Below the pieces are notes generated by a model that saw nothing but the letters and a program-made list of their open reading frames with translations, did not search any database and was not told where the DNA came from. 36,766 bases of DNA from Saprospiraceae bacterium (GTDB lineage: Bacteria > Bacteroidota > Bacteroidia > Chitinophagales > Saprospiraceae), in the NCBI GenBank assembly GCA_020631635.1, contig JAHDGW010000004.1:1-36766 (forward strand), read 5' to 3'. Shown here in pieces: positions 4,497 to 32,584 of this stretch (positions are counted from its first letter, which is position 1; each line of letters opens with the position of its first letter). Position numbers and translations under genes: made by a program.

Positions 4497-4686
4497 ATGT
4501 ATACATCAGATTTAAAAGAGATTATAGTTGATATAAAATTATTATTTGAAAATTACCTATTGCGGTGTAGTGCATATGAGTCCTTTGGCAAGGATTTGGC
4601 ACATAGGTAGTTGTTCAGATTTTTAAGGAGAATACTTAAGATCGATGGTCGGTCCAAGGGGGAATTCGGATCGACCATTTTTTTTC
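4497..4686 (+). ncRNA. Candidate small RNA or short-ORF transcript ending in a strong intrinsic terminator
   Basis: Nested inverted repeats ACCTAT(4555-4560)/ATAGGT(4603-4608), GTGC(4570-4573)/GCAC(4599-4602), TGAGTCCTT(4577-4585)/AAGGATTTG(4590-4598) with TGGC loop, followed by the terminator at 4645-4686; no plus-strand gene upstream. A 37-codon ORF (4497-4610) overlaps. Confidence 0.45.
4645..4686 (+). terminator. Strong Rho-independent terminator with no annotated upstream plus-strand gene
   Basis: ATGGTCGGTCC / GGATCGACCAT (11 bp, one G-U) followed by T8; the U-tract is only on the plus strand. Confidence 0.85.
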
Positions 4687-4970
4687 TCTAGATTTCACTC
4701 TGAAACATCAAGTAAGAAACCTTCCCCTTTTAATTCTACATTACTCCTACACTTTTTAATTCTCTATTGAATTATATTCATTTTGCAGGGCTTAAAGCTC
4801 CTACATAGAAGTACTGGTGTGGTATATTCAGACCTAACTCACTGGTCTATTTTAAATTTTTCTCCGAGGTGATTAAAAAATATGGCTGCGACGTATGGAA
4901 TATATTGCCTTTACTAGTGCTATAATAGATAATATCGGTCGAGTATCCGGATGATAGATAAAAGTCTAGT

Positions 4971-13071: not shown

Positions 13072-13662
13072 TTGATTGGTTATATAAAAGGAGAAATAAG
13101 CTTCAAGAGTCCTACGTACGTATACCTTGAAACCCACGGAGTAGGTTATCATATCAATATTAGCCTCTTCACGGCAGAAGGATTAGAAGGTAAAGACGCC
13201 GTGAGGCTATATACACATCTTCAGGTAAAGGAGGATAGCCATACCTTATATGGCTTTTTGACTATTGCAGAACGGGCATTATTTAAGCATTTGATATCAG
13301 TATCTGGTATAGGACCCAATACGGCTCGTGTGATGTTGAGTTACATGCCACCAGAAGAAGTAAAACAAGCCATTGTCAATGAAAACGTAGTGGCTATCAA
13401 TAAGATAAAAGGCATAGGTCCCAAGACCGCCAAACGGATCATACTTGACCTCAAAGACAAATTGATCAAAGAAGGGATGGAACAAACCGAAACTTCGCTC
13501 GGATCAAACAATAGTCTCAAAGAAGAGGCGTTATCTGCATTGTTAGCACTTGGATTCCAAAAAGCAACGATCAGCAAGAAAATTGATATGATCTTAGCCA
13601 AGAATCCGCAGGTTGATCAAGTAGAAACGTTAATCAAGATGATATTACGTCAATTGACATAA
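13072..13662 (+). CDS. ruvA: Holliday junction branch migration protein RuvA (TTG start)
   Basis: 'MIGYIKGEI', 'LQVKEDSHTLYGF', 'LISVSGIGPNTARVMLSY', 'KIKGIGPKTAKRIILDLKDKL'. Confidence 0.96.
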   Translation: MIGYIKGEISFKSPTYVYLETHGVGYHINISLFTAEGLEGKDAVRLYTHLQVKEDSHTLYGFLTIAERALFKHLISVSGIGPNTARVMLSYMPPEEVKQAIVNENVVAINKIKGIGPKTAKRIILDLKDKLIKEGMEQTETSLGSNNSLKEEALSALLALGFQKATISKKIDMILAKNPQVDQVETLIKMILRQLT

Positions 13663-13732: not shown

Positions 13733-16700
13733 TTGAAGAAAGGTCCACAAGAGACACTACATATGAGGAGATTCACATACACATTGATAACAGTCATCAG
13801 CGTGGTTTTGTTCGGTTTCAATGATGCATCGGCTTTTACGAAGGGGCCAGCGCTGGAGGAGATAAGTACTCCTGCTGTAAAAATCGTTGAGATGTCATCT
13901 GATACGATCCCATTAAGAGATCGGGATACTGATTTTATTAATAATGACTATTACAATCCATTTGACATTACACCTAGTAATGTGACACAGGAGGTGGAGT
14001 ATGACCCGGCGTCTAATCAATACATCATTACGGAGAGGATCGGAGAGGAATATTTTAGAAACCCCACAACAATGACCTTCGGTGAATATCTAGATCACCG
14101 AGGCAAAGAACAAGAACGGCAATATTTTAGTAAGCTAGCAGGTATAAATTCAGGTGTAAAAAGTGGATCAGGAAAAATAGATCCAATGGCTAAAATCGAT
14201 GTGAAAGATAATCTCATCGATCGATTATTTGGGGGTAGCGAAGTCAATATCCAACCACAGGGTAATATAGATATCACGACAGGATTTGATTATAATAAAC
14301 GTGATGATCCGGCATTACTCGAAAGACAACGTGTACAAGGGCCTCTTTTTGATTTTGATATGGCGATCAAAATGAATGTAGAGGGTAGTATTGGTAAAAA
14401 GTTAAATCTTGGGTTTAATTATGATACACAAGCGACTTTTGATTTTGATCGTCGTATCAAAATAGCCTACGACACGGAGCAATTTTCAGAAGATGATATC
14501 ATTAAAAATATAGAAGCAGGTAATGTGTCGATGCCACTCAATAGTCAGCTCATTCAAGGGTCTGAGAGTCTTTTTGGTATCAAAACAGAGCTCCAATTTG
14601 GTAAATTATTCTTGACTTTGCTGGCTTCTCAGCAACGATCACAGCAAGAAGATATCCAGATCGATGGAGGTGCCGTCGTACAGGAGTTTGAAGTACGACC
14701 TGATGAGTATGATGAGAATAGGCACTTCTTTTTATCTCATTACCATAGAGAAAAATTTGAAGAAGCACTTATAGATTTACCATACATCCAAAGTCAGATG
14801 GGTATCGTAAGACTTCAAGTATGGGTAGAGGAGATGACGGATAGAAATGTAGAGCAGACGAGGACGGTTTGTGCTATAGCAGATTTGGCAAAGTCTGATT
14901 TAGCTAACTATGATAATCCTGCTAGTATATTTCCACCCAGCACAGCTATGCAAGAGACAGATGCTGATGGCATTATACTACCAAGCAATGATAATAATCG
15001 ATTGTACAGGGAGTTAGCTGATGATCCATCTACTCGTATTCAGTCTATGACTGTACAATCTCTGATAGGGCCCTCATACCAATTACGAGAAAATGTAGAT
15101 TTCGAAAAATTTAGAGCAAGAAAGCTTAGCCCCAGTGAATATTCTTTCAATGAGCAACTTGGATTTATATCACTCAATGTAAGACTCAGACCCAATCAAG
15201 CGCTAGCTGTCGCATATGAGTATAACTATAGTTACAACGGCGATGGTATATATAAAGTAGGTGAGGTCACTGAAGATGCCAATAGCTCTAGTACAGATCA
15301 GAGTGCTGAGCCTCAGCCTGACAATGTGATATACCTAAAGATGCTCAAAAGCTCAAATCAGATACCTGCATTACCATCATGGGATCTCATGATGAAAAAC
15401 GTATATCCACTAGGTACAGGTCAGCTAGGTACAGAAGATTTTGTGTTTGATATCTTCTATGAGGATAACACTGATGGATCGCTCAAGCGATTTATACCAG
15501 AAGATGGTATTCGCTATTTACCCTTACTAGATTTATTTCAGTTAGATAAGCTTAACTCAAAGTTAGATCCACAACCTGATGGTCGTTTTGACTTTGTGCC
15601 AGGAGTGACCGTAATTCCACGTAGCGGAACGATTATTTTCCCTGTTTTGGAACCATTCGGTTCTTCATTGGATGAGCTTTTTGCTGATGCGGCGCCAGGA
15701 GTTGATCCTTCTTTTTATAAGTATCAGGAGTTATATGATACCACCGTAACGGGAGCTCGTAACTTTTTAGAGAAAAATAGATTTGTGATGGCTGGGCAGT
15801 TTAAGTCTAGTGTTTCATCCGAAATCTCACTAGGAGCATTTAATATACCACAAGGGTCAGTAACCGTACGTGCCGGTGGTGTCACCTTGATAGAAGGACA
15901 AGATTATGAAATAGACTATGGTATCGGTAGATTGAAAATCATTAATGATGCCTACCTCCAGTCGGGTACCCCGATCAGGGTATCCTTTGAGGATCAGTCC
16001 TTATTTAGCCTACAGCAAAAGAATATGCTCGGTGTCAGAGCGGATTACCTGTATAGTGATAACCTTCAATTTGGAGCTACATTTTTACAACTGAAAGAAA
16101 GACCATTTACGGAGAAAGTAAATTTTGGAGATGATCCAATCAATAACCGCATCTATGGTTTGGATATGAATTTTAGTAAAAATTCTGAATGGATTACTAA
16201 AGCGGTAGATAAACTTCCTTTCTATAGTACAAACGTACCTTCGTCTGTTAATTTTTCTGGAGAAGTAGCAGCATTAAGGCCAGGACATAATAATGCGATC
16301 AATCTATCTGGAGAAGATACAGGAGTAGTAAGTATTGATGACTTTGAGGGTGCCGCTAGTGCTATACCATTAGGAACGCAACCGCTAGAATGGGTATTGG
16401 CTAGTACTCCACTAGGTCGAGAAGGTACAGATAGCTACCGACCAGAAGCAGAGCTTGTAGATAACTTAGAGTATGGAGCCAATCGTGCAAAATTGAGTTG
16501 GTATCGTATAGATCAAGTAACACAATCATCTGAGGATCAGGATGATCCTTATACAAGAACAATACTGCAGGATGATCTTTTTGATCGTGATCTAGCATTT
16601 GATCAGCTACCTAACCTATTTACCTTCGATCTTTCATACTATCCAGAGGAGAGAGGTCCATATAATTTTGACCTACCTGGTGATGGTTACGATAATACCG

Positions 16701-18853
16701 CTGGAGCTTTTTTTGATGCCAATGAAAATCAGATAAAACTGAAGGAACCTGAAACTCGATGGGGTGGGGTCATGAGAGAGCTCAATAATAATGACTTCGA
16801 GGCTGCTAATGTAGAATATATCGAATTTTGGATGATGAATCCATTTATGGAGCGAAGAGATAGTGGTGATCCTGATGACAATGAGACAGGATTTTTATAC
16901 TTCAACTTGGGTAATGTATCAGAAGATATACTGAAGGATGATGTCCAGTTTTTTGAAAATGCAATACCTATCAACGATACTGATGTAGTACCAATAGTAG
17001 AAAGTGTATGGGGCGATGTACCTATCAGAATACCGCCCATCATTGCATATGACAACCAAGAAGGAGATAAACAGGATCAAGGATATGATGGTCTCAATGA
17101 TGAAACAGAAAGAGTAAAGTTTCAGGACTATCTCGCCAGTTTTGGCAACGAACAAGTACTCAATGAAGATCCGTCAGGTGATAACTTTGTAGCCTTCAAT
17201 AATCCATCTTATAATGGTGTAAACGACCTTACTGTCCGATACAAAGAGAATAATAACCCTCAAGGAAATAGACCTGATAACACAAACTTAGAGAGCTCTA
17301 ATAATGCTTCTGCATTGGCAGGAGACCGTAACCCACAAGTAGAAGATCTGAACAATAACCGATCTCTTGAGACCAGCGAAAGCTACTACGAATACAAAGT
17401 AGAACTGCGCCATGACAACAACAATGGATTGGCAGCTGATGTAGGAGAGCAATTTATCAGAGAGCGGCGTACCGTCGTGAGAGCTAATGGTCCTAATGAA
17501 GAATGGTATAGATTTCAAATACCCATCAATAAGGGAGAATCTGTAAACGGAATAGAAGGTCTACGATCCATACAGTTTATCAGAATGTATATGACAGGCT
17601 TTACAAAGCCTAAGACTCTACGTTTTGCTGAGTTAGAATTAGTAAGAAATCAATGGAGACGTAATATCCCAGATTGCTTCGCAGGGCCAGATGTGCCTAG
17701 AGATTTTGTTCAATTTAGTATTGACGACGTAGGAGTTCAGGAGAATTCAAATAAAACACCGTTTAACTATGTCCTTCCAGAAGGGATCAAGCAACAGACA
17801 TTATTTAGTTCATTCTCCAATTTAAGACAGGATGAAAAGTCTCTTGCACTACAGATCAATAAATTTCCAAGCTCAGGCTGTGAAGCGAGCGTATTTAAGT
17901 TTACTAATGTAGACTTAAGACTCTATGAGCGGATGCAAATGTTTGTGCATGCAGAGGACTTATCACCTATCGACTCAGATGGTGCTGACCCTATAGATCC
18001 TGGTGATTTGTTCGTCTATCTCAAGGTTGGTAAAGATTTTAAACAGAACTACTACGAGTATCAGATACCACTGGTGATGTCTGATCCAAATCAAAGTATA
18101 TCATCAGAAGAGAACATATGGAAAGATGAAAATATGTTTGACTTTCCCCTGGAGTTATTGACAGATTTGAAACAAAGACGAAATCTAAATGGAATTGCTG
18201 GTGAGATTTTCGCCGAGGCTGTTTTGGATGAAAATAGTATACCGGGAGAAATTGCTGATACCGTAAAGATTATAGGAAACCCAAGTCTAGGTTATGTAAA
18301 AGGTATTGAGATTGGGGTAAGATCAAAGAGCTCTCCCGAGTTAGAGTTTTATAGATCAGAGGTTTGGATCAACGAACTGCGAGCCACGGGACTACAAGAG
18401 CAAGGAGGATATGCTGGACTTGCACGTATGGATATACAGATGGCTGATCTCGGGTCGGTGACGGCCTCTGGTGGATTTTCTACTATAGGGTTCGGTGCTC
18501 TAAATGATAAACTGGCAGATAGACAGCAAGATACACGTACCAACTGGGACGTGGCCACCAATCTGGAGATCGGTAAGATCTTACCAGAAGCATGGAATGT
18601 AAGCATTCCGTTTTTTGCTCAATATTCAAAAAATACCATTAAAGAGAGGTGGGACCCCTACGAACTGGATCTCACGGCTGAGGAAACAATCAGCTCGAGA
18701 CAGGCAACAGGAGAAGAGGCTCAAGAAATACGAAATCGGGGTCAGGATGTGACGACGATCAAGACTTTCAATTTTACCAATGTCAAGAAAAATAGAGGTG
18801 GCTCCAAGAAAAAAACAACAAAAAGAGCCAATCAAGGTATAGGTAGGCGCTAA
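13733..18853 (+). CDS. sprA: SprA (Sov), T9SS outer-membrane translocon / gliding protein: N-terminal about two-thirds, ends at TAA 18851-18853 (likely start is ATG 13763, MRRFTYTLITVISVVLFGF...)
   Basis: Very long exported protein immediately downstream of ruvA; SprA motifs such as 'NIQPQGNIDITTGFDYNKRDDPALLERQR', 'LGFNYDTQATFDFDRRIKIAYDTEQFSEDDIIKNIEAGNVSMPLNSQLIQGSESLFGIKTELQFGKL', 'SVNFSGEVAALRPGHNNAI...GVVSIDDFEGA'. Confidence 0.93.
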   Translation: MKKGPQETLHMRRFTYTLITVISVVLFGFNDASAFTKGPALEEISTPAVKIVEMSSDTIPLRDRDTDFINNDYYNPFDITPSNVTQEVEYDPASNQYIITERIGEEYFRNPTTMTFGEYLDHRGKEQERQYFSKLAGINSGVKSGSGKIDPMAKIDVKDNLIDRLFGGSEVNIQPQGNIDITTGFDYNKRDDPALLERQRVQGPLFDFDMAIKMNVEGSIGKKLNLGFNYDTQATFDFDRRIKIAYDTEQFSEDDIIKNIEAGNVSMPLNSQLIQGSESLFGIKTELQFGKLFLTLLASQQRSQQEDIQIDGGAVVQEFEVRPDEYDENRHFFLSHYHREKFEEALIDLPYIQSQMGIVRLQVWVEEMTDRNVEQTRTVCAIADLAKSDLANYDNPASIFPPSTAMQETDADGIILPSNDNNRLYRELADDPSTRIQSMTVQSLIGPSYQLRENVDFEKFRARKLSPSEYSFNEQLGFISLNVRLRPNQALAVAYEYNYSYNGDGIYKVGEVTEDANSSSTDQSAEPQPDNVIYLKMLKSSNQIPALPSWDLMMKNVYPLGTGQLGTEDFVFDIFYEDNTDGSLKRFIPEDGIRYLPLLDLFQLDKLNSKLDPQPDGRFDFVPGVTVIPRSGTIIFPVLEPFGSSLDELFADAAPGVDPSFYKYQELYDTTVTGARNFLEKNRFVMAGQFKSSVSSEISLGAFNIPQGSVTVRAGGVTLIEGQDYEIDYGIGRLKIINDAYLQSGTPIRVSFEDQSLFSLQQKNMLGVRADYLYSDNLQFGATFLQLKERPFTEKVNFGDDPINNRIYGLDMNFSKNSEWITKAVDKLPFYSTNVPSSVNFSGEVAALRPGHNNAINLSGEDTGVVSIDDFEGAASAIPLGTQPLEWVLASTPLGREGTDSYRPEAELVDNLEYGANRAKLSWYRIDQVTQSSEDQDDPYTRTILQDDLFDRDLAFDQLPNLFTFDLSYYPEERGPYNFDLPGDGYDNTAGAFFDANENQIKLKEPETRWGGVMRELNNNDFEAANVEYIEFWMMNPFMERRDSGDPDDNETGFLYFNLGNVSEDILKDDVQFFENAIPINDTDVVPIVESVWGDVPIRIPPIIAYDNQEGDKQDQGYDGLNDETERVKFQDYLASFGNEQVLNEDPSGDNFVAFNNPSYNGVNDLTVRYKENNNPQGNRPDNTNLESSNNASALAGDRNPQVEDLNNNRSLETSESYYEYKVELRHDNNNGLAADVGEQFIRERRTVVRANGPNEEWYRFQIPINKGESVNGIEGLRSIQFIRMYMTGFTKPKTLRFAELELVRNQWRRNIPDCFAGPDVPRDFVQFSIDDVGVQENSNKTPFNYVLPEGIKQQTLFSSFSNLRQDEKSLALQINKFPSSGCEASVFKFTNVDLRLYERMQMFVHAEDLSPIDSDGADPIDPGDLFVYLKVGKDFKQNYYEYQIPLVMSDPNQSISSEENIWKDENMFDFPLELLTDLKQRRNLNGIAGEIFAEAVLDENSIPGEIADTVKIIGNPSLGYVKGIEIGVRSKSSPELEFYRSEVWINELRATGLQEQGGYAGLARMDIQMADLGSVTASGGFSTIGFGALNDKLADRQQDTRTNWDVATNLEIGKILPEAWNVSIPFFAQYSKNTIKERWDPYELDLTAEETISSRQATGEEAQEIRNRGQDVTTIKTFNFTNVKKNRGGSKKKTTKRANQGIGRR

Positions 18854-18858
18854 AATAA

Positions 18859-21426
18859 ATACAGGCCAAAAAAGAAAAGAAAAGAACTCCCAAACCATGG
18901 GATATAGAAAACTTCAGTGCAAGCTATGCTTATACCGAAATGAACCATACCGATGAATTTTATAATCAAGATCGGACTAAGGATATAAGAGGAGCACTAG
19001 ATTATAACTATAGTCGAAAAGCTAACTACATTAAGCCTTTTAAAGGTGTAAAAGGCAAATGGCTCAAATGGTTGAGCGAGTTCAACTTTAACCCGCTGCC
19101 GCAATCGTTCAATTTTACGACCGAGATGCGTCGTTATAAAAATGAGCGACAATACCGTCTACCAGAAGTACCCGTATATGCATTTGATGATCAGCGGTTT
19201 GATTGGACTCGGCAGTATGGGCTCAACTGGGATCTAAGTAAATCGATCAAGATTAACTTCAATGCAACTAATACTTCAGTGGTAGATGAGCTTCGCCAAG
19301 TGGGAGTCCCGCGAGAGACTAATGCACCAGCAGGAACCACCGACCTAGAAGCGTGGGTAAGTGACCCCAGCAATAGGATGTGGAAGGATCAATTTGGTAA
19401 TGAAACGGATGCTAACGGTCAAAACTATAGCGATATCGTAAGAGAAAATCCTGATTTTGTAAGCGATTACAGATGGGATAATATCACTAATGGGGGACGT
19501 AATCGTCAATACCAGCATGATCTCGCTGTGACATTTACAGCGCCACTCAAGTACATACCATTATTAGATTGGACTACAGCCAAGGCAAGTTACAATGCAG
19601 GATACAGTTGGGATGCAGCACCCTTAAGTATACAAGAGTTTGGTGGTATTATACAAAACAATCAAAGCCGTAGTCTTAATGTATCATTGAATTTTACCAA
19701 GTTATACAGTAAGTCCAATTACCTTAAAAGTATAGACCGTAAAAAGAGTAATCGTAAAACAAAACGAAAGACTAGAGGAGAGGTAAAACAAGATGATGCT
19801 AAGGGAGAAACAAAAGATGAAAAGGATGATCGCTCGCGTAAAAAGAGTAAGCGGGATGGCCCTAGCGATATAGAGCGCATATTGATCAAGCCATTGCTTG
19901 CATTGAGAAATATTAAGTTTAACTACAGAGAAAATTTAGCCACAGTAGTGCCAGGATTTAATGCGGGTTTATCGCCTCAATACCTTGGTCTGACCTCTGG
20001 TTTTGATGCACCAGGCGCTGCTTTTGTCCTTGGATGGCAGCCAGATATTAGTTACGTAGATGATCCTAATTCAAGCAGTAACTGGTTGTACGATGCTGCC
20101 AATAGTGGGTGGATCACTGACGATAGATTATTCAATGGTCAAGTACTACAAAATCGTACGATATCATGGGATGCCAATATCGATGTCGAACCCATTAGAG
20201 ATCTTAAAGTCAATGTAAAACTCAATAAGAGATATGTAAAAGATCATAAAGAGAACTTCCGAAATCTATCAGATATCGAAGGAGTACCTGATTTTCAGCA
20301 AGTGGCAAGACAAGATGTAGGATCATTTGAAGTGACCTATGCATCTTTCCAGACACTGTTCAATACAAATTCCTTTGAGCTGTTTCAGACTATGAAAGCC
20401 AATAGATATCTAGTATCTAGAAATCTTGCGAATAACGATATACCTCATGAGCTTGATCTTGGATTCAAGGAAGGATATGGCGGTAGTGCATCACAGGTGA
20501 TCATACCATCTTTCTTAGCGGCATATACGGGGCAAGACGTAAATAATCTAGATTATACCAATGGAGAGGAAGTGAATTTGGAGCAACAGATAGCGAATAG
20601 TAGTTATATACCAAGACCTAACTGGAATTTGGAGTATAAAGGCTTATCTAAGCTTTCTTTTATGAAAGAGATATTTAGCTCGATTGTATTTAAGCATGGC
20701 TATAAGTCTACCTTAAGTGTCAATCAATACTTCAGTGATCAGGAGTTTGATCTAGAGTTTGGTCAGGATATCCCTGGCCTACCAGGTATCAAGGAGAATG
20801 GTAATTTTTACTCTCAGATAGAGATACCTCAAGTAGTGATCGACGAGGGCTTTGAGCCTCTTATTGGTATTGAGATCAAAACGAAAAGTGATATGAAGAT
20901 CGACTTCGAATATCGCCAGACTCGTAATCTTGCATTGATCTTAGAGACAACTAATCTTCAAGAGCGTAAGAATAAAGAGATTGCATTCGGATTTGGCTAT
21001 ACCTTCCCAGATGTCAATATCAAGTTTTTGACAGGTGACAAGGGTAAGAAAAACTCTAGAAGCGACCGTGACAAAAAGGACGAAGATCCCGATAAATTAA
21101 ATAACAATACTAACAACAGCCGTGGAGGAAGAGGGGGCCGTGGTGGATCAGTCAATAACTTCAGAGGCAGAGAGCTTACGCTCAACGTAGATTTTGCATT
21201 AGGAGATGATCTTACGGTGCTACATGAGCTAGATAGTGATTATTCGGCCGAGCCAACAAGAGGTGCTAGAAGTATAAGCTTCAGTCCATCAGTAGATTAT
21301 GATATCAATGAAAATTTGACCTTGAGAGCATTCTTTGATTATAATAAACAACAACCAAAGTTGTCGAGTAGTGTAGATGTCACCAGTATGCGTGGAGGGG
21401 TTACCGTTAGGTTCAATCTCAACTAG
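18859..21426 (+). CDS. sprA: SprA C-terminal part in a different frame (annotatable ATG at 18940, but the conserved coding signal begins upstream: ...KKRTPKPWDIENFSASYAYTEMNHTDEF...)
   Basis: Frame is open from 18859; 'WDIENFSASYAYTEMNHTDEF' is the expected SprA continuation; ends 'VTSMRGGVTVRFNLN' as a typical SprA C-terminus. ATG 18940 lies inside the conserved strand and there is no signal peptide. Confidence 0.9.
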   Translation: MQAKKEKKRTPKPWDIENFSASYAYTEMNHTDEFYNQDRTKDIRGALDYNYSRKANYIKPFKGVKGKWLKWLSEFNFNPLPQSFNFTTEMRRYKNERQYRLPEVPVYAFDDQRFDWTRQYGLNWDLSKSIKINFNATNTSVVDELRQVGVPRETNAPAGTTDLEAWVSDPSNRMWKDQFGNETDANGQNYSDIVRENPDFVSDYRWDNITNGGRNRQYQHDLAVTFTAPLKYIPLLDWTTAKASYNAGYSWDAAPLSIQEFGGIIQNNQSRSLNVSLNFTKLYSKSNYLKSIDRKKSNRKTKRKTRGEVKQDDAKGETKDEKDDRSRKKSKRDGPSDIERILIKPLLALRNIKFNYRENLATVVPGFNAGLSPQYLGLTSGFDAPGAAFVLGWQPDISYVDDPNSSSNWLYDAANSGWITDDRLFNGQVLQNRTISWDANIDVEPIRDLKVNVKLNKRYVKDHKENFRNLSDIEGVPDFQQVARQDVGSFEVTYASFQTLFNTNSFELFQTMKANRYLVSRNLANNDIPHELDLGFKEGYGGSASQVIIPSFLAAYTGQDVNNLDYTNGEEVNLEQQIANSSYIPRPNWNLEYKGLSKLSFMKEIFSSIVFKHGYKSTLSVNQYFSDQEFDLEFGQDIPGLPGIKENGNFYSQIEIPQVVIDEGFEPLIGIEIKTKSDMKIDFEYRQTRNLALILETTNLQERKNKEIAFGFGYTFPDVNIKFLTGDKGKKNSRSDRDKKDEDPDKLNNNTNNSRGGRGGRGGSVNNFRGRELTLNVDFALGDDLTVLHELDSDYSAEPTRGARSISFSPSVDYDINENLTLRAFFDYNKQQPKLSSSVDVTSMRGGVTVRFNLN

Positions 21427-30889: not shown

Positions 30890-31925
30890 AGAGACCAAAA
30901 GAACAGATGTCAATAAGCTTGGTGAATTTGGCTTGATCGATCACCTGACTCATGATATTGTACTACAAAACAAATCGAGTAGGAGAGGTATTGGAGATGA
31001 TGCTGCGGTCATAGATCATGGAGACTTACAGACAGTTGTATCTAGTGACATGCTGGTAGAGGGTATACATTTTGATATGATGTATACACCACTGAAGCAT
31101 CTCGGGTATAAGTCTGTCATCGTCAATCTATCAGACATCTACGCCATGAATGCTAGACCGACACAGATTACGGTATCTATTGCTTTTTCTAACCGCTACT
31201 CTGTAGAGGCAATCGATGAATTATACGAAGGCATATTATTGGCATGTAAGCTGTATAATGTGGATCTAGTAGGTGGAGATACCACTTCTTCTCCTAAGGG
31301 TTTGATTATCAGTATCACGGCTATCGGGGAGGCAAAAAACGAAGATATCGTATATCGAGATGGTGCTCAGTCGGGAGATATCATCTGTGTAAGTGGTGAT
31401 CTAGGTGCAGCTTACTTAGGCTTACAAATACTCGAACGAGAAAAACAAATATATCTCGAAGCTCCTCAGGTACAGCCAGATCTTGAAAATCAAGAGTATT
31501 GCCTCCGTAGATTCTTGAAGCCAGAAGCAAGAAAAGATACGATTGAGTATTTCGCTAAACATGGATTTAAACCCACATCGATGATAGATATATCTGATGG
31601 TCTGGCCTCAGAATTATTTCATATCTGCAAGCAATCAGACGTAGGTGCATATATTGAAGAAGACAAGGTGTCTATACAACCTGACGCATATCAGCTGGCA
31701 CTCAAGTTTAATGTCAATCCTATCACTTGTGCTCTCAATGGTGGAGAAGACTATGAGCTCTTATTTACCGTGAAGCCTGACGATTTGGAGAAAGTAAGAT
31801 TTATGCCAGGTGTTTATCTCATCGGTGATATTTTGGATAAGAAAGAGGGAATAAACCTCCATAGCTCAGGGGGAAATATTTATCCACTAGAGGCACAAGG
31901 ATGGCAGCACTTTAAAGCGGAGTAG
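30879..31925 (+). CDS. thiL: Thiamine-monophosphate kinase
   Basis: 'RRGIGDDAAVID', 'VVSSDMLVEGIHFDMMYTPLKHLGYKSVIVNLSDIYAMNARPTQITVSIAF', 'DLVGGDTTSSPKG', 'NGGEDYELLFTV'. Confidence 0.97.
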   Translation: MENKETKRTDVNKLGEFGLIDHLTHDIVLQNKSSRRGIGDDAAVIDHGDLQTVVSSDMLVEGIHFDMMYTPLKHLGYKSVIVNLSDIYAMNARPTQITVSIAFSNRYSVEAIDELYEGILLACKLYNVDLVGGDTTSSPKGLIISITAIGEAKNEDIVYRDGAQSGDIICVSGDLGAAYLGLQILEREKQIYLEAPQVQPDLENQEYCLRRFLKPEARKDTIEYFAKHGFKPTSMIDISDGLASELFHICKQSDVGAYIEEDKVSIQPDAYQLALKFNVNPITCALNGGEDYELLFTVKPDDLEKVRFMPGVYLIGDILDKKEGINLHSSGGNIYPLEAQGWQHFKAE

Positions 31926-32550
31926 TCTGTTTTTGTGACTTACAATCGTATGGTATGAGCACTATTATCCCTGAAATATTGGCTTGATCTATAGGTAATT
32001 TTCGATGGGCCTCTATTTGTGCCTCAAAAATCATCTCTAGTGTTGAAAATATTTTCTCTACACTAGTTTCACGACTGATGCCAAGATGTATTATTGCCTT
32101 ATTGGGTGCCTCACTGTAATAAGACTTATTACCAAAATTTATTATAAATTCTGCAATATCTTCTTTGGGTTTAAGAGATTGCTCATGAGGACATTCATCT
32201 GAGATTATATTTCTGAATATATTTCTGCTTTTGATTTTTGAAATATCTCCACAAGGAAAGTATTCATTAAGGAGTAGGGGTATCCAATACTGTCCATGAG
32301 TTTTTATAGAGTTTTCTATCTCAAAAGTTTCGGAATTAACGGCACAATACAGACTCTCGGAGCTGCAGTCATCTTGATAGATATATTTTTCCAAGAATCC
32401 ACCGAAAGTAAGTTTTCTATTAGAAGAGATTGAAACTAATTGATTAGAAGACTCGAATCTAAGATCAACACTCTTATGCTTCTTAATAGGATAGAGATTG
32501 CAACTCGCGGTAAAAGCAAGGATCAACAATATAGAATGCCACATCTTCAT
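31912..32550 (-). CDS. Putative lipoprotein of unknown function
   Basis: 'MKMWHSILLILAFTASC' lipobox; no family recognised; further Cys residues. Confidence 0.7.
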   Translation of the reverse strand: MKMWHSILLILAFTASCNLYPIKKHKSVDLRFESSNQLVSISSNRKLTFGGFLEKYIYQDDCSSESLYCAVNSETFEIENSIKTHGQYWIPLLLNEYFPCGDISKIKSRNIFRNIISDECPHEQSLKPKEDIAEFIINFGNKSYYSEAPNKAIIHLGISRETSVEKIFSTLEMIFEAQIEAHRKLPIDQANISGIIVLIPYDCKSQKQTTPL

Positions 32551-32584
32551 AGATATAAGATGAGCTTTAGTGACTTATTGGTGC

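Follow-up and report, generated by a model that had tools for sequence, protein, structure and literature searches.

The sprA locus and its counterparts in relatives

The DNA analysed here (the window) was the whole of a 36,766-nt contig (C412) of a draft Saprospiraceae genome of 436 contigs and 3.42 Mb. An intact ruvA gene (13072-13662, + strand; TIGR00084; 98.5% amino acid identity to the sister species, the congener Saprospiraceae MAG-141) was found directly upstream of two consecutive open reading frames on the same strand. The first one, of 1706 codons, ran from 13733 to a TAA at 18851-18853, and its likelier start was the ATG at 13763 (MRRFTYTLITVISVVLFG...); the N-terminal piece, MRRFTYTLITVISVVLFGFNDASA, had the look of a signal peptide as judged by eye only. 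The second frame was open from 18859 to 21426 (+ strand, 855 codons), and its first ATG, at 18940, fell within the conserved region, leaving an ORF2 of 18940-21426.

Both pieces matched the TIGR04189 profile well above its cut-off of 200, the 5' piece with 1612.6 bits over positions 6-1574 of 2319 and the 3' piece with 481.3 bits over positions 1567-2318, so that together they spanned positions 6-2318 and gave a full-length family match. With phmmer, the 5' piece aligned to residues 43-1651 of F. johnsoniae SprA (PDB 6h3i), and the 3' piece aligned to residues 1648-2401 (PDB 6h3j). This adjoining coverage, together with the ruvA-sprA gene order, identified both pieces at the level of their sequence as SprA/Sov, the outer-membrane translocon of the type IX secretion system (T9SS), in agreement with the initial annotation. 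The protein of the window appeared to be an ordinary SprA, its sole difference being an interruption in a linker. A second, intact sprA was not found in the window's own genome, which gave only one match.

The split was real in the deposited sequence, where the window contained no Ns and where the end of the first ORF, the stop codons, the opening of the second frame and its ATG were all re-checked and confirmed at the positions initially annotated. The C-terminal frame had a TAG at 18844-18846 and a TAA at 18856-18858 and was open only from 18859, and the third frame had a TAG at 18840-18842, placing stops in all frames within 18840-18858. Stops in all three + frames fell within 19 bp of one another at 50 distinct places on the + strand of this AT-rich window (0.75% of the 19-bp intervals), yet in the 7.7 kb of sprA the break was the only such place. 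The break lay in a Lys/Gly-rich linker (18779-18903, + strand), with 52% A across 18781-18900. Since the length of this linker varied among relatives, from 12 to 41 residues in the ten where it could be delimited, a genuine in-frame change in it would probably be harmless.

The comparison with sprA of close relatives, which the initial annotation had proposed, showed that the sister (G002, JAHDCU010000007.1), with a common neighbourhood over the window, has sprA as one ORF of 2562 aa with 94% amino acid identity to that of the window. In the nucleotide alignment the window lacked exactly 5 bp at two points located 19 bp apart, the first at 18844-18846 and the second at 18863-18865 (+ strand, each position within 1-2 bp), both stretches being present in the sister. 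It had been predicted that at least two events would be needed to restore a single frame, and two were what the alignment gave. The stretch between the losses, overlooked before, still coded for the peptide of the sister: at 18846-18863 (+ strand; a 19-nt run with 84% identity and a frame offset of +1) GAKINT was encoded in the third frame, the 19 bp reading GAKINTG compared with GDKINTG in the sister. Each 5-bp loss amounted to a +1 shift minus two codons. The stops found in all frames at 18840-18858 were thus due to three successive coding segments that zigzag through the frames, the stops being wrong-frame readings.

Of 349 genomes in the order, 338 contained the region. Among the best ~155 of these 338 relatives, none besides the window had an internal split in sprA, all other frames being full length except for cuts at contig ends. 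SprA was a single continuous polypeptide of ~2,400 residues in the sister and in the other relatives listed, in contrast with the window, where it was broken at 18844-18865. Recurrent splitting in the order was therefore rejected: for G247, G078 and G092, inspection of the sequences showed the short frames to be contig-end truncations, and those of G016, G047, G117 and G342 lay, according to their coordinates, too close to contig ends for a whole gene. A second genome of the window's species was sought among the three of the genus and not found; the third (65% complete) had no match at the sprA locus. A contig-level scan for relatives of the window returned the sister and one distant relative. 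Apart from sprA, every long gene of the window but one had a full-length, single-frame counterpart in the sister. Unlike these, a 220-codon open frame at 31912-32574 (- strand) was matched in the sister by a frame of only 70 codons.

Frame breaks across the genome

About 630 kb of the genome containing the window (~18%) was compared with ~1.25 Mb of the sister (~30%), giving 196 comparable genes in which internal, uncompensated and N-free frame breaks were counted. All eight breaks corresponded to the loss of exactly 5 bp and were distributed in six genes, two in sprA, two in porU and one in each of four others. The porU gene (T9SS sortase, NF033707) was affected at ~4533 and ~4610 of L073 (G000:C182; region ~4533-4615), with the same order of frames as in sprA. 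Single 5-bp losses relative to the sister were observed in a histidine kinase gene on the porU contig (L073, ~10506), in an ABC-F ATPase gene (L159), in a tRNA-hydroxylase-like gene, named by eye (L164, G000:C137), and at the C-terminus of a hypothetical gene (L167, ~5185). In the reverse comparison no such break was detected in the sister sample; the same lesion thus recurred in unrelated genes of one assembly and was absent from the other. The tRNA-hydroxylase-like gene, on a 2-kb contig, also carried an in-frame TAG downstream of its 5-bp loss, which may point to genuine decay of this copy or to its origin in another strain.

Indels of other sizes (+/-1, +/-2 and +11) were discarded, as they were compensated, fell in divergent segments, or lay close to the 5' boundary of a stop-to-stop frame, in leader DNA; the leader-DNA reading of these small indels was based on position, and the +11 case was the one checked directly.

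In the assembly of the window, N runs numbered 13 per 506 kb, and ten of these were exactly N10; the 1.25 Mb sample of the sister had one run. Three N10 joins were located inside genes for dihydrolipoyl dehydrogenase, NADP-isocitrate dehydrogenase and a protein with a sorting domain (L063:9329, L083:10929 and L067:9585, respectively), and they stood for only 2-3 real bases, implying that the assembly had been joined where almost nothing was missing.

Constraint and origin of the break

Against the sister, dN/dS was 0.040 for the 5' piece of sprA and 0.016 for the 3' piece, that is ~0.02-0.04 for both halves and like that of neighbouring genes, with dS near saturation. When changes were polarised, those derived in the window and those derived in the sister were nearly even, 14 vs 13 in the 3' half and 9 vs 7 in the last part of the 5' half. 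Neither of these analyses revealed relaxed constraint or an excess of change in the sprA lineage of the window, and old decay of the gene was rejected on these grounds, which bears out the earlier remark that both halves look intact. Concerning other T9SS genes and their cargo, whose state it had been suggested to verify, porV was intact and ~133 matches to the type A sorting domain (CTD) were kept in the genome; porU was split by its two 5-bp losses, and gldM, although present, was cut by contig ends. The remainder of the T9SS looks to be in use.

Among natural frameshifts, events of 1 bp predominate. Against this background, the finding of a single loss size eight times, across six unrelated genes in one draft assembly, leads us to attribute the losses to the assembly. 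From the sequence comparisons, the split of sprA is very probably an artefact of the draft assembly, and the organism most likely has one continuous sprA of ~2,560 codons. A join or gap-closing step would have dropped exactly 5 bp on either side of a short linker segment, the two drops would shift the sprA frame twice and expose the stops, and the identical 5-bp join error would have hit the further genes of the genome; we infer that the cells do carry these missing bases. The fragmentation into 436 contigs, the N10 joins hiding 2-3 bp and the one recurrent 5-bp loss resemble the join and gap-closing artefacts of draft MAGs. The initial annotation had considered a doubly wrong consensus in an A-rich stretch; a double error is indeed the favoured reading, but an A-rich homopolymer is not its likely cause, the losses being of 5 bp each and recurring in five other genes.

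A point against an assembly artefact is that the T9SS accounts for two genes, sprA and porU, out of the six affected, which is a mild coincidence. Decay specific to this system, first suggested by porU, was weakened by the identical 5-bp losses in non-T9SS genes. No T9SS-specific story is necessary, since other genes carry the same lesion, sprA was the gene given at the outset and the porU contig (C182) entered the sample because porV lies on it.

Phages can select for T9SS and gliding mutants in flavobacteria. Two true 5-bp deletions might have disrupted the translocon in the sampled population, in a real and recent inactivation of sprA (and porU); the result could be, for instance, a lineage that does not glide, perhaps resists phages and is too young to show other decay. 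The breakage of two T9SS genes would fit such an event, as would the second sprA ORF, which lacks a signal peptide, begins within the conserved barrel and hence could not be exported, a point on which we agree with the earlier description. We consider this explanation unlikely, because losses of exactly 5 bp were also found in non-T9SS genes (the ABC-F ATPase, the histidine kinase and others), all eight breaks had this size instead of the 1 bp of most natural frameshifts, and neither relaxed constraint nor damage to porV or the cargo matches accompanied them. The earlier proposal of a pseudogene implying loss of the T9SS and gliding was not upheld for the same lack of relaxed constraint and the same retention of porV and sorting domains. 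Somewhat more doubtful still is a reading in which the cells truly lack these bases, a mutational process of this lineage removing exactly 5 bp at numerous sites; the T9SS (sprA, porU) would then have been lost recently, with more than 100 cargo genes still carried.

Programmed frameshifting or ribosomal bypass fusing both ORFs into one SprA, also raised initially, is very improbable. Two +1 shifts would restore the frame and both halves are conserved, but the relatives listed all have a single ORF, contig-end truncations aside, and the window lacks bases relative to them instead of carrying an inserted element to be skipped. No conserved recoding site or inserted element was found in these relatives; moreover, the ribosome would have to shift at two unrelated sites separated by 19 bp, and visual inspection of the eight sites showed no slip motif shared among them. 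Least probable of all is a SprA formed from two separately made proteins: the break does sit in a linker that tolerates change and varies in length, but ORF2 has neither a signal peptide nor a start ahead of the conserved region, no split homologue occurred among the best ~155 of the 338 relatives, and SprA is a single 36-strand barrel forming the T9SS translocon (PMC8754138).

With an assembly artefact as the preferred reading, breaks in this draft genome, those of sprA and porU included, should not be taken to mean that type IX secretion has been lost. Whether a single indel size recurs in the comparison with a congener may serve as a simple check to separate artefacts from pseudogenes.

A candidate small RNA in the window

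Away from sprA, a segment of ~135 bp at 4583-4717 (+ strand) was 97.8% identical to the sister, with surroundings at ~80%. This segment, part of the region 4553-4717 (+ strand), had no Rfam match at the gathering score; it folded well (z = -2.9) and ended in a strong hairpin followed by a T-run, resembling an intrinsic terminator. Weak DNA matches to it were found in two other members of the family (77% over 104 bp and 88% over 40 bp), and we regard this region as a candidate for an unnamed small RNA.
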